The position numbers were made by a program, and so were the translations under genes. Positions 34,884 to 40,987 of a DNA stretch of 64,000 nucleotides are shown here, piece by piece. This DNA comes from Rathayibacter oskolensis (lineage in GTDB: Bacteria; Actinomycetota; Actinomycetes; Actinomycetales; Microbacteriaceae). The stretch lies in NCBI RefSeq assembly GCF_900177245.1, contig NZ_FXBM01000001.1:1426001-1490000 (forward strand), read 5' to 3'. A model generated the notes under the pieces. The model was not told the origin of the DNA and did not search any database. It saw only the letters and a list, made by a program, of their open reading frames with translations. Position 1 is the first letter of the stretch. Every line of letters begins with the position of its first letter.

Positions 34884-35162
34884 CCGCCGCTTCGGCTCCG
34901 CCCCGCGCACGATGTCCCGCCCGCGAGGGGAGTCGTGAGGATCGGATCGGGAGATCCGTGCTCGCCACCCGCCGATCGGCGCGATCCCACTACTCAGGCG
35001 TGCAATAATTGTCAATAGGACCCGTTCGGGTCGAGGAGCACCAGGCCCACGTCGGGCGTGCGACGTCCTCGACTTGACATGGGTCCTCGTAATGCCCACC
35101 GACGGACGACGCCCTCCCGGCGACGTGCGCTACCGGGACGCAACGGATGGAGAGGTGCCGCC

Positions 35163-36455
35163 ATGGCCACCAGAGCTACCAAGACAGCAACGCTCGACGC
35201 CGTCGACGACGACGCGACGACGACCAAGAAGCCGGCCGCGCGCAAGCCCGCAGCCGCCAAGACCCCGCGCGCCCGCGCCTCCGCGAAGACCGCTGCGCCC
35301 GCCACGGCCGCCGAGGAGGAGACTCCCGACGCGCCCGAGCCCGACGAGGCGGAGGTGACGGAGGACGACGAGACCGAGACGGTCGTCGAGGAGCCCGAGG
35401 CCGACGCCAAGGACGACACCGAGACCCCCGAGACCCCTGCCGTCGCCGTGGCTGCGCCGGCGGAGCCGCTCCCGAGCGGCGCCCTCGTCCTGTCCTTCGG
35501 CGGCGACGACGACGAGGTCCCCGTCTACTCGACGGCGATCACCGGCGCGACCGCCGACCCCGTCAAGGACTACCTCAAGCAGATCGGCAAGGTCGCGCTC
35601 CTGAACGCGGCCGAGGAGGTCGAGCTCGCGATGCGCATCGAGGCGGGCCTCTTCGCCGAGGACAAGCTCGCCAACACGAGCGACCTCAGCCCGGAGCTCG
35701 TCCGCGAGCTCCGCTGGGTCGCGAAGGACGGGCAGCGGGCGAAGAGCCACCTGCTCGGTGCGAACCTCCGACTCGTCGTCAGCCTCGCGAAGCGCTACAC
35801 GGGTCGTGGCATGCAGTTCCTGGACCTCATCCAGGAGGGCAACCTCGGCCTCATCCGCGCCGTCGAGAAGTTCGACTACACCAAGGGCTTCAAGTTCTCG
35901 ACCTATGCGACCTGGTGGATCCGTCAGGCGATCACCCGCGCCATGGCCGACCAGGCGCGCACCATCCGCATCCCGGTCCACATGGTCGAGGTCATCAACA
36001 AGCTCGCCCGCGTCCAGCGGCAGATGCTCCAGGATCTGGGCCGCGAGCCCACTCCGGAGGAGCTGTCCCGCGAGCTCGACATGACCCCCGAGAAGGTCAT
36101 CGAGGTGCAGAAGTACGGCCGCGAGCCGATCTCGCTGCACACCCCGCTCGGCGAGGACGGCGACAGCGAGTTCGGCGACCTCATCGAGGACACCGAGGCC
36201 GTTGTGCCGGCCGACGCCGTGGGCTTCACGATGCTGCAGAAGCAGCTCGAGTCGCTCCTCGACTCCCTGTCGGAGCGTGAGGCCGGAGTCATCCGCATGC
36301 GCTTCGGTCTCGGCGACGGCATGCCGAAGACCCTCGACCAGATCGGCGACACGTTCGGCGTCACGCGCGAGCGCATCCGTCAGATCGAGTCGAAGACGAT
36401 GGCGAAGCTGCGCCACCCCTCCCGCTCGCAGTCGCTGCGCGACTACCTCGAGTAG
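35163..36455 (+). CDS. rpoD: Primary RNA polymerase sigma factor (SigA/RpoD/HrdB)
   Basis: Housekeeping sigma factor. The 430-residue product has an Ala/Lys/Glu-rich, disordered N-terminus (1-130), region 1.2 ([16 protein letters not shown]), region 2 with [24 protein letters not shown] and [13 protein letters not shown] for -10 recognition, region 3, and region 4 with [21 protein letters not shown]. The ATG at 35163 has GGAGAGG at a good distance; the leader is about 150 nt if the AATAAT box is used. murT-like starts 5 nt after the stop. Confidence 0.97.
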
Positions 36456-36459
36456 GCCG

Positions 36460-37725
36460 GTGATCCGCTACGCGCCGGCGGTCCTCCTGGGGAGGGCCGC
36501 CCGCTTCGCGGCGCGTGTCCGGAAGCCCGGCGGGGGCTCCGCCGTCCCCGGACTCGTGGTCAACCGCCTCGCGCCCGGATTCCTCCCGGCTGTCCTCGAG
36601 GGCTTCGCCGAGGGGCTCGTCGTCGTCACGGGGTCGGCGGGCAAGTCGACGACGACCAAGATGCTCGTCGCGGTGCTCCGAGCACATGGGCTGCGGGTGT
36701 TCACGAATCCCTCGACCGCCAACATCGCACAGGGGCTCACCTCGGCCCTCCTCGAGCGCTCGGACCTCCGCGGCCGGATCGACGCTGACATCGCCGTCCT
36801 CGAGATGGACGAAGGGCACGGCGCTCGGCTCGCGCCGCGCATGCGCCCGAGAGTCGTGCTGCTGACGAATGTGGTCGTCGATCAGATCGACCGCTTCTTC
36901 GACCCCGCGATGGTCGCCCGCATGCTCGGCACCATCGCCGAGCGGGCCACCGGCCCGGTCGTGTTGAACGCGGACGACCGCCACGTCGCCGAGATCGCGA
37001 CCGCGCTGCCGCAGGACGGCGTCCGCTGGTACGGCGTGTCCGCTCCGGTGCGCGAGGACGCGGTCGGCGGGCTCGGCTACGCCGCTGCGGCCGAGGGCGG
37101 AGCCGAGCGGGCCACGACCGTCGTCGAGTCGACCTCGGGCGCGAGCGCTCGGATCGTGAGCGACGGCGACACGCTCGACGTGCGCCTGCCGGCGCGCGGC
37201 GTCCACTACGCCGTCGACGCCGCAGCAGCGGTCTCGGCCGCGCGCGCGGTTCTCAGCGAGCGCTTCGACGCCGATGTCGCCTCCGCGGCCCTCTCCTCGA
37301 TCGATCCCGTCTTCGGACGCGGCGAGGTGGTCACCGTCCGCGGCCAGGAGGTGGAGTTCGTGCTGGTGCAGAACCCGGCGAGCTACCGGCTGAACCTGGC
37401 CGAGATCCCGCAGGGCACCGAGCAGATCATGCTCGCGATCGGCTCCGACGTGCGCGATCCCTCCTACTTCTGGCCCGTCGACACCTCCGGCCTCGGTCGG
37501 GTGCGCGTCGTCTCGGGGTCGAAGGCCCACGAGGCCGCCCTGCAGCTGCGCTACGACGGAGTCGCGATCGACGCGGTCGACGAGGATCTGGGTCGAGCTC
37601 TCGACAGCTTCCTCGCGCTGCCCACACCCGTCTCTGGCAGGAAGACGATCGTCTTCTCGGCCGACTCGATGCGCCGCACCCGCGCCCACCTTCAGCTCGC
37701 CTCCAACCGCGAGGAGGACTCGTGA
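36460..37725 (+). CDS. murT: Divergent MurT-like Mur ligase, cysteine-free
   Basis: MurT, with GatD, normally amidates the alpha-carboxyl of D-Glu in lipid II using ATP and glutamine-derived ammonia. This 421-residue product has the Mur ligase core with P-loop VVTGSAGKSTTTK (usual form GTNGKTT), TNPSTANIAQG (usual NRSGAN), VLEMDEGH, TNVVVDQIDRF and VLNADD, then the DUF1727 C-terminal domain (FGRGEVVTVRG, VQNPASY, IGSDVRDPSYFWPVD). The Cys4 zinc ribbon inserted in known MurT is missing and the whole protein has no cysteine. GTG start at 36460; the last codons overlap gatD. Substrate assignment is therefore open. Confidence 0.82.
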   Translation: MIRYAPAVLLGRAARFAARVRKPGGGSAVPGLVVNRLAPGFLPAVLEGFAEGLVVVTGSAGKSTTTKMLVAVLRAHGLRVFTNPSTANIAQGLTSALLERSDLRGRIDADIAVLEMDEGHGARLAPRMRPRVVLLTNVVVDQIDRFFDPAMVARMLGTIAERATGPVVLNADDRHVAEIATALPQDGVRWYGVSAPVREDAVGGLGYAAAAEGGAERATTVVESTSGASARIVSDGDTLDVRLPARGVHYAVDAAAAVSAARAVLSERFDADVASAALSSIDPVFGRGEVVTVRGQEVEFVLVQNPASYRLNLAEIPQGTEQIMLAIGSDVRDPSYFWPVDTSGLGRVRVVSGSKAHEAALQLRYDGVAIDAVDEDLGRALDSFLALPTPVSGRKTIVFSADSMRRTRAHLQLASNREEDS

Positions 37726-38444
37726 CCACTCTCCGCATCGGCGTGCTCGCGCCGGAGGCTCTCGACAGCAACGGCGACGCGGCGAACGCGCGGGTCCTCG
37801 TGGCTCGGGCCCGGTGGGCGGGTCTCGACGCCGAGGCGGTGCAGTTGCGCTCCGCCGGCGACTTCGCCGTCCGACCCGATGTGCTCGTGGCCGGCACCGG
37901 CGCCGATCAGGATCTCCCGGCCGTCCTCGACCTCCTGCAGGAGGTCGGTGACGAGCTCCGCGGCTGGGTCGGTGACGGCGTCGAGATCGTGGCCGTCGGA
38001 GCCGGCTGGGAACTGCTGACCGAGTCCTTCGAGACACCCTCGGGGGTCGTGCAGGGCCTCGGGGTCTTCCCGGGCAGAGCGGTGACCGGTGAGCGGACGA
38101 CCGGGGACCTCGTCGTCCAGTCGACCGACGGCGTGCTCGTCGGGTTCGAGAACCACGTCCGCCGGATCGACGGCTTCGACACCACCTCGGCGCTCGGGCG
38201 AGTGCTGCACGGAGTCGGCGACGGTCACGGCGTCGAGGGGTACCGGAGCGGCTCGCTGCTCGGCACGCACCTGCACGGACCGGTCCTGGCCAAGAATCCT
38301 GCACTCGCCGACGCGATCCTCCGCAGGACGGCCGATCGCCACGGTCTCGCGTACGCGGCGACGGACGAGCGGATCCGGGCGTCCGATGAAACGGCACGAG
38401 CCGCCCGCGAGGTGATCGCGAAGCGGCTCGGTGTCGTTCGGTAG
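37722..38444 (+). CDS. gatD: GatD-like subunit without the catalytic cysteine
   Basis: GatD is the glutaminase subunit of lipid II isoglutaminyl synthase. This 240-residue homologue keeps the fold and several motifs: VQGLGVFPG, VGFENHVRR and GTHLHGPVLAKNP with the catalytic-type His185. The nucleophile motif, normally ICGGxQLLG, reads VGAGWELLT: the cysteine is Gly93 and the conserved Gln is Glu. The bases (gtc gga gcc ggc) leave no doubt about the reading. Glutamine hydrolysis by the known mechanism is excluded. It overlaps murT by 4 nt, so a stable complex is likely. Confidence 0.82.
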   Translation: MTTLRIGVLAPEALDSNGDAANARVLVARARWAGLDAEAVQLRSAGDFAVRPDVLVAGTGADQDLPAVLDLLQEVGDELRGWVGDGVEIVAVGAGWELLTESFETPSGVVQGLGVFPGRAVTGERTTGDLVVQSTDGVLVGFENHVRRIDGFDTTSALGRVLHGVGDGHGVEGYRSGSLLGTHLHGPVLAKNPALADAILRRTADRHGLAYAATDERIRASDETARAAREVIAKRLGVVR

Positions 38445-38905: not shown

Positions 38906-40987
38906 ATGGCCTCCTCCGATTACTCCGCTCGACACCTCTCCGTCCTCGAGGGTCTCGAGGCGGTCCGGAAGCGCCCGGGCATGTACATCGGATCGACCGA
39001 CTCCCGCGGACTCATGCACTGCCTCTGGGAGGTCATCGACAACTCCGTCGACGAGGCTCTGGCGGGGCACGGCACCGAGATCAGCGTCGTGCTGCACTCC
39101 GACGACAGCGTCGAGGTGCGCGACCGGGCGCGCGGGATCCCCGTCGACATCGAGCCGAAGACCGGACTGACCGGCGTCGAGGTCGTCTTCACGAAGCTCC
39201 ACGCGGGCGGCAAGTTCGGCTCCGGCTCCTACGCGGCGTCGGGCGGACTGCACGGGGTCGGCGCGTCGGTGGTGAACGCCCTGTCGGAGCGGCTCGACGT
39301 CGAGGTCGACCGCGACGGTCGCACCTACCGCATGTCGTTCCACCGCGGGGAGCCCGGCCGCTTCGCCGACGCGGGCGAGCCCACTCCCGATGCTCCGTTC
39401 ACTCCGTTCGAGAACGGGTCGGAGCTGGCCGTCGTCGGCAAGGTCGCGAAGGGCGTCACGGGGACGCGCGTGCGCTACTGGGCCGATCGGCAGATCTTCA
39501 CGAAGGGCGCGGCGTTCCAGACCGACGACCTCGTGACCCGCGCTCGGCAGACGGCCTTCCTCGTCCCGGGGCTCACGATCGACATCGTCGACGACCGCGA
39601 GGACGAGCGGCGTGCCGAGATGTTCCGCTACGACGGGGGGATCTCGGAGTTCGTGGAGTTCCTGGCGCCCGACTCGGCGGTGACCGACGTCCTCCGGCTC
39701 TCGGGCTCGGGCGCCTTCACAGAGACGGTCCCGGTGCTGACGCCGGGCGGCGCGATGGTGCCCACCGAGGTGGAGCGCACGTGCGAGGTCGACATCGCCC
39801 TGCGCTGGGGCACCGGCTACGAGACCGTGATGCGCAGCTTCGTGAACATCATCTCGACTCCCAAGGGCGGGACCCACCAGACCGGCTTCGAGCAGGGCCT
39901 GCTGAAACTGCTCCGCTCGCAGGTCGAGGCGAATGCGCGTCGGCTCAAGGTCGGCTCCGACAAGCTCGAGAAGGACGACATGCTCGCCGGCCTGACGGCC
40001 GTGCTCACCGTCCGGCTCCCCGAACCGCAGTTCGAGGGCCAGACGAAGGAGGTGCTCGGCACCCCGGCGGTGCGCGCCATCGTCGCGCAGACCATCGGCT
40101 CGACGCTCGGCGCGGTCTTCTCCTCGACCAAGCGCGAGGACAAGGCGCAGATGTCGCAGCTGCTCGAGAAGCTGGTCGCCGAGATGAAGTCGCGCATCTC
40201 GGCACGTGCCCACAAGGAGACGCAGCGGCGCAAGAACGCCCTCGAGTCCTCCTCCCTCCCCGCGAAGCTCGTCGACTGCCGCAGCAACGACGTCGAGAAC
40301 AGCGAGCTGTTCATCGTCGAGGGGGATTCCGCCCTCGGCACCGCGAAGAGCGCCCGCAACAGCGAGTACCAGGCACTCCTGCCCATCCGCGGCAAGATCC
40401 TGAACGTGCAGAAGGCGAGCATCGCCGACATGCTCTCGAACGCCGAGTGCGCGTCGATGATCCAGGTCATCGGAGCCGGGTCCGGCCGATCGTTCGACCT
40501 GTCGGCCGCGCGCTACGGCAAGATCATCCTGATGAGCGACGCCGACGTCGACGGGGCGCACATCCGCACGCTCCTGCTGACCCTCTTCTTCCGCTACATG
40601 CGCCCGCTGGTCGAGGCCGGCCGGGTCTTCGCGGCGGTACCGCCGCTGCATCGCGTCGTCGTGATGAACGCGGGGAAGAAGCCGAACGAGACGATCTACA
40701 CCTACTCCGAGAAGGAGCTCACCGGGGTGCTGGCCTCGCTCGCCAAGGCGGGCCGGCGCTACCAGGACCCGATCCAGCGCTACAAGGGTCTCGGCGAGAT
40801 GGATGCCGACCAGCTGGCGACGACGACCATGGACCGCTCGCGCAGGACGCTCCGCCGGGTGCGGGTCGCCGATGCCGAGAACGCCGGCCGCGTCTTCGAG
40901 CTCCTGATGGGCAACGACGTCGCACCGCGCAAGGAGTTCATCGTCCGCGGCTCGGAGACGCTCTCGCGCGACCGCATCGACGTGTAG
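38906..40987 (+). CDS. parE: DNA topoisomerase IV subunit B (second type II topoisomerase)
   Basis: ATPase subunit of a type IIA topoisomerase. The 693-residue product has the GHKL ATPase (EVIDNSVDEALAG; ASGGLHGVGASVVNALS), the transducer domain and the Toprim domain (EGDSALGTAKSARN, LMSDADVDGAHI). The usual DNGRG motif reads DRARG, so the first Gly is Ala. Assigned as ParE, not GyrB, because it stands apart from dnaA/recF and is paired with a convergent subunit A gene. TAAACT (38894-38899) and a GGAGGA ribosome site both abut the ATG. Confidence 0.9.
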   Translation: MASSDYSARHLSVLEGLEAVRKRPGMYIGSTDSRGLMHCLWEVIDNSVDEALAGHGTEISVVLHSDDSVEVRDRARGIPVDIEPKTGLTGVEVVFTKLHAGGKFGSGSYAASGGLHGVGASVVNALSERLDVEVDRDGRTYRMSFHRGEPGRFADAGEPTPDAPFTPFENGSELAVVGKVAKGVTGTRVRYWADRQIFTKGAAFQTDDLVTRARQTAFLVPGLTIDIVDDREDERRAEMFRYDGGISEFVEFLAPDSAVTDVLRLSGSGAFTETVPVLTPGGAMVPTEVERTCEVDIALRWGTGYETVMRSFVNIISTPKGGTHQTGFEQGLLKLLRSQVEANARRLKVGSDKLEKDDMLAGLTAVLTVRLPEPQFEGQTKEVLGTPAVRAIVAQTIGSTLGAVFSSTKREDKAQMSQLLEKLVAEMKSRISARAHKETQRRKNALESSSLPAKLVDCRSNDVENSELFIVEGDSALGTAKSARNSEYQALLPIRGKILNVQKASIADMLSNAECASMIQVIGAGSGRSFDLSAARYGKIILMSDADVDGAHIRTLLLTLFFRYMRPLVEAGRVFAAVPPLHRVVVMNAGKKPNETIYTYSEKELTGVLASLAKAGRRYQDPIQRYKGLGEMDADQLATTTMDRSRRTLRRVRVADAENAGRVFELLMGNDVAPRKEFIVRGSETLSRDRIDV

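Follow-up and report, generated by a model that had tools for sequence, protein, structure and literature searches.

Among the closest described systems to the one considered here are the MurT/GatD lipid II isoglutaminyl synthases of Staphylococcus aureus, Streptococcus pneumoniae, and Mycobacterium tuberculosis. The D-Glu α-carboxyl that MurT targets is also the group to which the bridge of group B peptidoglycan is attached, and we know of no ligase assigned to that bond. Here we analyze a murT/gatD-like gene pair in a 64,000-nucleotide stretch of Rathayibacter oskolensis (contig NZ_FXBM01000001.1, positions 1,426,001 to 1,490,000; hereafter the window), whose GatD lacks the nucleophilic cysteine, and we propose with moderate confidence that it is a Mur-type ligase with a dead glutaminase half, joining what is likely the first amino acid of the group B bridge to the D-Glu α-carboxyl. 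For S. aureus, MurT alone is reported to be inactive with any donor and still to require GatD. The S. aureus GatD mutant C94G is reported to lose glutamine-dependent amidation and to keep ammonia-dependent activity at pH 8.5, whereas at pH 7.5 ammonia was used by neither the wild type nor the mutant (PMC3266927).

The two genes and the substitution that sets them apart are as follows.

36460..37725, + strand: murT-like gene of 421 amino acids, with a GTG start at 36460, a stop ending at 37725, and Mur-ligase middle and MurT C-terminal domains

37722..38444, + strand: gatD-like gene of 240 amino acids, with a GTG start at 37722 and a stop ending at 38444, class I glutaminase family by sequence

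37998..38000, + strand: Gly93 of GatD, replacing the nucleophilic Cys, the same substitution as in S. aureus C94G

The window MurT matches the Pfam family Mur_ligase_M (3.8e-14, 53.5 bits against a cut-off of 24) and, at the borderline, MurT_C (3.8e-5, 24.1 bits against a gathering cut-off of 25), and GatD, whose gene adjoins murT, matches GATase_3 (3e-13, 50.3 bits against a cut-off of 27). Their best relatives in the PDB are pneumococcal MurT (E 9e-25) and S. aureus GatD (E 4e-22), respectively, and the NCBIfam isoglutaminyl synthase equivalogs score the pair far under their cut-offs (90 versus 800 bits and 97.5 versus 450 bits). In the GatD elbow, AVGAGWELLT, Gly93 takes the place of the Cys and Glu97 that of the Gln. 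A sequence-only reading of this DNA had pointed out both replacements and the retention of His185 in GTHLHGP, which the frame and the alignment confirm, as well as a MurT with no Cys at all, which holds for the full 421-residue translation, and the motifs NPSTAN and VVVDQIDRF beside a surviving P-loop (GSAGKS), all of which are present. It had further described two intact frames, overlapping by 4 nucleotides and under selection, and this is borne out: against seven Rathayibacter-like relatives, the ratio of non-synonymous to synonymous substitution rates (dN/dS) is 0.10–0.16 for MurT and 0.22–0.31 for GatD, so purifying selection acts on both genes, less strongly on GatD. A sequencing error or a pseudogene in the window was ruled out, because the Cys loss is common to the clade of its relatives and because of this purifying selection on both genes.

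To place the loss among relatives, GatD was scanned for in named genomes, which yielded 47 loci, the nearest from seven Rathayibacter (67–77%) and the next from other Microbacteriaceae. All 14 Microbacteriaceae loci (L010 included) lack the Cys, with Gly in 13 and, in Planctomonas, Ala together with a His to Asn change; 29 of the remaining loci carry it. Given this uniformity and the purifying selection, the loss is neither chance nor a sequencing slip. The four other loci, from Clostridia (L016, L029, L030, and L039), have a GatD without Cys and without His, each beside a MurT.

Two larger samples were searched for GatD: 398 genomes from the same family as Rathayibacter L001, where 309 gave a match at 1e-6 with up to seven candidates per genome scored, and 198 genomes of the order, 71 of which gave a match at 1e-10 and were all read. 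The MurT/GatD locus was read in 118 family-sample genomes, and these comprise 84 with Cys-less pairs only, 8 with both kinds, and 26 with a Cys pair only, proportions that are not estimates, the reads being best-scoring or chosen matches. The 71 order matches consist of 62 order-only GatDs with Cys and nine Cys-less ones in genomes shared with the family sample; the elbow of L297, ICGMYQLFG, also has the Cys. Outside the family sample, the Cys is kept in 61/61 order genomes, which may include unsampled members of the same family. Identical MurT rows were merged for the count, and it leaves out five main-clade rows without a readable elbow or without GatD and also L353, which has a Cys-type GatD and no MurT in its stretch.

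A FastTree phylogeny was built from 239 MurT rows; its main Cys-less clade holds 102 rows (97 Cys-less and five unread) with a support of 100. The Cys-state label needs at least three changes on this tree, which has several long branches, and judged from its topology the Cys has been lost at least twice in the family. Several types of pair can be told apart. Type I, to which the window belongs, has NPSTAN in MurT and mostly GTGWELL or GAGWELL in GatD. Type II has mostly NPSGGN in MurT, with Ala, Ser, or Gly at the Cys position of GatD and a variable His, which is replaced by Gln or Lys in further members of the type II half. Type III keeps the Cys, has NxTGSN or NxSGSN in MurT, and is common in the order. 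Type V (seven genomes, L215–L221) combines the elbow FLFTHNA(L/A)EV, which has no Cys, with a His to Leu or Ile change and a MurT of five to six Cys; as it lies outside the main Cys-less clade, it is a separate Cys loss on this tree. In streamlined genomes (1.1–1.5 Mb), MurT is intact and the GatD elbow is degenerate (L154 and L158 by profile match, L178 by eye).

To see which functional residues accompany the loss, 97 Cys-less rows from the main clade (96 rows for GatD) were compared with 117 Cys rows. Window residues were matched to published ones by alignment only, and structural statements below combine that alignment with the published structures. The positions concerned are the following.

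36631..36648, + strand: MurT P-loop GSAGKS, residues 58–63, with the catalytic Lys62

36706..36723, + strand: MurT NPSTAN, residues 83–88, with Asn88 as the acceptor-side Asn

36802..36813, + strand: MurT Glu115, Asp117, and Glu118, Mg2+ and acceptor site, with roles taken from pneumococcal residues 110, 112, and 113

36877..36897, + strand: MurT V-DQIDRF loop, with Val140 where Cys-type MurTs carry Arg

37369..37377, + strand: MurT Gln304-Asn305-Pro306, counterpart of a conserved Lys-Asn-Pro

37456..37458, + strand: MurT Asp333, likely counterpart of S. aureus MurT-D349, a correspondence by motif and alignment only

37770..37772, + strand: GatD Asn17, where Cys-type GatDs carry Tyr by alignment

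38094..38096, + strand: GatD Arg125, counterpart of the glutamine-holding R128 of S. aureus

38274..38276, + strand: GatD His185, in GTHLHGP

In the main Cys-less clade, 13 MurT positions are invariant (97/97 rows), namely K62, N88, E115, D117, E118, D141, Q142, R145, N170, D173, R287, N305, and D333. The ligase site of pneumococcal MurT is reported to comprise the P-loop Lys, the acceptor Asn, and two acids, identified by mutation, and Glu110 and a hinge Arg, identified by superposition; Lys59Ala and Asn85Ala are both reported to be inactive. S. aureus MurT-D349 is the partner of the GatD His. As aligned, the window MurT keeps the main ligase residues, and the middle of the P-loop varies, the Asn60 of the Cys rows being Ala here. 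Other positions that are fixed in the Cys type have changed. The Arg before DQ, present in 117/117 Cys rows, occurs in 1/97 of the main Cys-less clade; pneumococcal Arg135 is reported to close the gate to GatD in loop models. The Lys of Lys-Asn-Pro, also 117/117 in the Cys rows, is Gln in 55 and Lys in 42 of the 97, and position 253 has gone from Asn to Asp in all 97. On the GatD side, position 17 is Tyr in 117/117 Cys rows; in the main Cys-less clade, 93/96 rows have Asn, Ser, or Thr there and 0/96 have Tyr. The counterpart of Tyr17 is reported to obstruct the entry of glutamine or to plug the channel.

The absence of Cys from MurT had been taken in the sequence-only reading as loss of the Cys4 zinc ribbon. 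Taking the Cys count as a proxy for the ribbon, 43/61 Cys-type MurTs of the order have three or fewer Cys, and published work finds the ribbon itself in only some bacteria; it is therefore no defining feature of the MurT family. Its loss as a mark of new function was ruled out on the same grounds, low counts being usual in Cys-type MurTs of the order too.

The pair occupies a slot between two genes that we take, by their sequences, to be sigA and a parE-like topoisomerase gene, with the borders given as open reading frames.

35058..36455, + strand: sigA, for the principal sigma factor, which bounds the slot upstream

38906..40987, + strand: parE-like topoisomerase gene, which bounds the slot downstream

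The order sigA-MurT-GatD-parE is found in 13/13 named Microbacteriaceae loci with DNA on both flanks (in L007 the sigA flank is missing), and both border genes occur together in 0/33 remaining named loci within the DNA stretches compared. The DNA after sigA was compared in 20 family genomes, 15 of them without MurT. In 11 of these 15 (L265, L267–L271, L274–L277, and L281), the place downstream of sigA that MurT/GatD take in the window is occupied by a CofE-like gene, directly next to sigA in ten and separated from it by a transaminase gene in the eleventh (G036); parE follows in 10/11, and in G097 it is not within 5.6 kb. As for the other four, about 0.6 kb separates sigA from parE in G035 (L273) and G066 (L280), genomes with no MurT match and no CofE-like match, G064 has further frames, and G060 offers only 237 bases. 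Three CofE-like proteins match Pfam F420_ligase (2e-12, 9.5e-7, and 1.4e-9), and the NCBIfam CofE models match such proteins below cut-off only; a PDB search with the CofE-like A3 profile gave no match at E 0.001.

Across the 398 family genomes, a strong CofE-like match was defined as one below 1e-110 and a MurT match as 1e-15, with up to four candidates per genome scored. A strong CofE-like match is present in 64 genomes, and MurT in 0/64 of these versus 318/334 of the others (Fisher p 3e-59, counting genomes as independent and ignoring kinship). The MurT score is 1e-116 or better in 249/318, a level reached, among the genomes read, only by main-clade Cys-less pairs. Three further CofE-like matches are weak (1e-38 to 1e-50), all in genomes with MurT. 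When CofE-like and GatD matches are compared, the overlap is one genome, G266, with GatD at 2.3e-7 and no MurT match. The five CofE-like genomes with a 16S sequence are dispersed over a 16S tree that has weak support. At L222 (G068), an unusual Cys-less MurT/GatD pair has a weak CofE-like match with in-frame stops next to it. A large frame that includes a CofE-like domain occurs in 16 order genomes that are not part of the family sample, and in the five that were read (L365–L369) the domain is at the C-terminal end; Pfam found asparagine synthase and GATase_7 but not F420_ligase in the one such frame submitted. GatD is matched in 0/16 of these genomes versus 71/182 others (p 7e-4).

Genes near these loci recur across types. 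The same ATP-grasp family lies nearby in 13 of the 15 strong CofE-like genomes whose surroundings were compared, an alanine-racemase-like gene in six, and a transaminase in two; Pfam ATPgrasp_ST was matched by the two ATP-grasp proteins examined. The G072 transaminase exceeds two NCBIfam diaminobutyrate-transaminase cut-offs (625.7 versus 438 and 603 versus 552), and that of G036 is 67% identical to it. The ATP-grasp family also recurs near 4/7 type V pairs, and an alanine-racemase-like gene lies near GatD, and is oriented towards it, in 12/20 type II genomes. A second Alr is encoded elsewhere in 7/7 genomes examined with such a GatD-near gene, and five of six Rathayibacter/Agromyces genomes have one Alr. 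Group B bridges contain diamino and D-amino acids, and these neighbors could supply them.

Taken together, these data suggest how the pair may work. MurT would use ATP to activate the D-Glu α-carboxyl at position 2 of the lipid-linked peptidoglycan precursor, as its retained residues would allow. GatD, to judge from its elbow and the matching S. aureus mutant, would no longer make ammonia from glutamine and would stay as the partner that MurT needs. Since the S. aureus results show both the effect of C94G and the requirement for GatD, the natural pair should still activate D-Glu and await a nucleophile from outside. GatD 17 and MurT 140, which lie at the intersubunit passage, have both changed, so that this nucleophile is most likely an amino acid and probably the first of the group B bridge; ligation would yield D-Glu with a bridge residue on its α-carboxyl, ready for group B cross-linking. 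The choice of an amino acid over free ammonia we infer from genomic context, and the simplest account is that MurT/GatD and the CofE-like protein both put an amino acid on the D-Glu α-carboxyl. A broader proposal, to which we would give slightly less than an even chance, is that the sigA-parE stretch of Microbacteriaceae is a group B cross-bridge locus, in which the dead-glutaminase MurT/GatD and the unrelated CofE-like protein do the same first-residue step, the transaminase, racemase-like, and ATP-grasp proteins that some genomes encode nearby make or add the rest, and GatD acts as an amino-acid holder or gate through its kept Arg125.

Free ammonia could take the place of the amino acid, the pair still amidating D-Glu without glutamine nitrogen. 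Known CofE is an amino-acid ligase that joins glutamate and not ammonia, which disfavors ammonia as a nucleophile shared with the CofE-like protein that replaces the pair, and group B walls spend the carboxyl in question on the cross-link. Amidation with ammonia would be in keeping with the frequent retention of His185 and Arg125 and with the S. aureus MurT and C94G complex, which works with it at pH 8.5, but neither that mutant nor the wild type uses it at pH 7.5, and we regard this explanation as unlikely. Similarly improbable, in our view, is a ligation that does not involve the first bridge residue, for instance amidation or extension of the bridge or action on another carboxyl. The changes at positions fixed in the Cys type, with Arg140 all but gone and Asp at 253 throughout, mean that the substrate may differ, and the ATP-grasp genes in the vicinity of CofE-like loci and type V pairs point to more than a single ligation step; the acceptor-side residues N88, E115, D117, and E118, however, are unchanged, which favors the same acceptor carboxyl.

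That GatD is instead a decaying passenger of a pair without cell-wall function seems very improbable. The degenerate elbows of the streamlined genomes would fit decay, as would a GatD dN/dS about twice that of MurT, but the window and its relatives have intact copies of both genes, which remain linked and subject to purifying selection, the MurT catalytic positions are invariant in 97 rows, and L154 and L158 retain a GatD-like frame after MurT.

Several findings weigh against ligation of the first bridge residue by this pair. The glutamine-pocket residues are largely kept in the main Cys-less clade (Arg125 in 93/96 and His185 in 71/96), none of the racemase, transaminase, ATP-grasp, and CofE-like genes has a relative within the 64 kb of the window (E 1e-3), and 16/398 family genomes have neither MurT nor a strong CofE-like match. 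The 26/118 family genomes with a Cys pair only have neither a Cys-less MurT nor a CofE-like match, and if they are group B, another bridge ligase exists. In four of them (G040, G327, G030, and G195) the gap between sigA and parE is 0.1–0.6 kb, and in G336 it is 3 kb and contains further frames. Wall type, moreover, was compared with Cys state only at the level of the family and for a few named taxa; this and the 26 genomes keep our preferred explanation below certainty. As a side observation, a Cys-type MurT/GatD pair was seen on the Leifsonia shinshuensis plasmid NZ_CP043642.1 (L184, 11932–14881), where it adjoins an M15 peptidase with a predicted vanY label amid metal-transport genes.

The sequence-only reading, which had proposed a bridge ligase, expected loss of the Cys to follow wall type and named scattered loss, or a second, amidating Cys-type pair in the same genome that leaves this one dispensable, as evidence to the contrary. 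The loss does concentrate in the family (84 + 8 of 118 family-sample genomes against 0/61 order genomes outside the sample), although it is not uniform. Searched for MurT_C, 16 genomes with named loci gave one match over cut-off in each of 14, ten being Microbacteriaceae, and no second match over cut-off in the Rathayibacter/Agromyces genomes searched; this search is not exhaustive, since it missed the known pair in 2/16, the type I genomes G008 and G011. A Cys pair does stand beside a Cys-less one in eight other family-sample genomes, so that these and the 26 Cys-only genomes touch both of the points that had been named. What favors the bridge ligase is the distribution of the Cys loss, the 13 invariant MurT positions, the mutual exclusion with the CofE-like gene, and the diaminobutyrate transaminase and racemase-like genes linked to these loci in some relatives.

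Rathayibacter itself is presumably of wall type B2γ. The Microbacteriaceae are described as having group B peptidoglycan (PMC10978784); Agromyces aureus and Clavibacter are reported as B2γ and Rhodoluna lacicola (1.43 Mb) as B2β with a D-Ala-D-Dab (diaminobutyrate) peptide, and a published table of ten Microbacteriaceae taxa lists nine B types and one unknown. The main text of a 2025 pangenomic MurT/GatD study mentions neither cysteine nor type B. Among the matches listed, the titles and abstract starts of open-licence articles in PMC reported no Cys-less GatD or group B bridge ligase, and in the same collection nothing was found joining MurT with Microbacterium, or CofE with peptidoglycan, Actinobacteria, and ligase. 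Group B peptidoglycan defines a whole bacterial family, for which concrete candidate bridge-ligase genes can now be named: a natural glutaminase-dead amidotransferase resembling an amino-acid ligase, and a second, unrelated enzyme at the same place. With two such candidates, the question of the bridge becomes testable with purified proteins and lipid II.

Among known systems, a MurT relative of pseudomurein archaea is reported from genomes without a GatD homologue (PMC11915815); the partner is absent there and altered in the window pair. The asparagine-synthase-like proteins of the 16 order genomes share their CofE-like domain with the CofE-like proteins of the family, but are single large proteins. 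The Microbacteriaceae CofE-like protein, of the amide-forming F420_ligase family, is like the window pair in its neighborhood and, as a strong match, is never found with MurT in the 398 genomes; it differs in being unrelated to MurT by sequence and in having no partner subunit that we could see. The lipid II isoglutaminyl synthases resemble the pair in gene adjacency, Mur-ligase and class I glutaminase domains, the P-loop Lys, the acceptor and Mg2+ residues, the GatD His, and the glutamine-holding Arg, whereas the window pair differs in its Gly nucleophile position, in Asn for Tyr17, in Val for the Arg before DQ, in Gln for the Lys of Lys-Asn-Pro, and in equivalog scores far below cut-off. The S. 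aureus GatD C94G laboratory mutant carries the identical substitution at the same position as Gly93, but in the window the change is natural, common to its relatives, and joined by changes at partner-facing positions.

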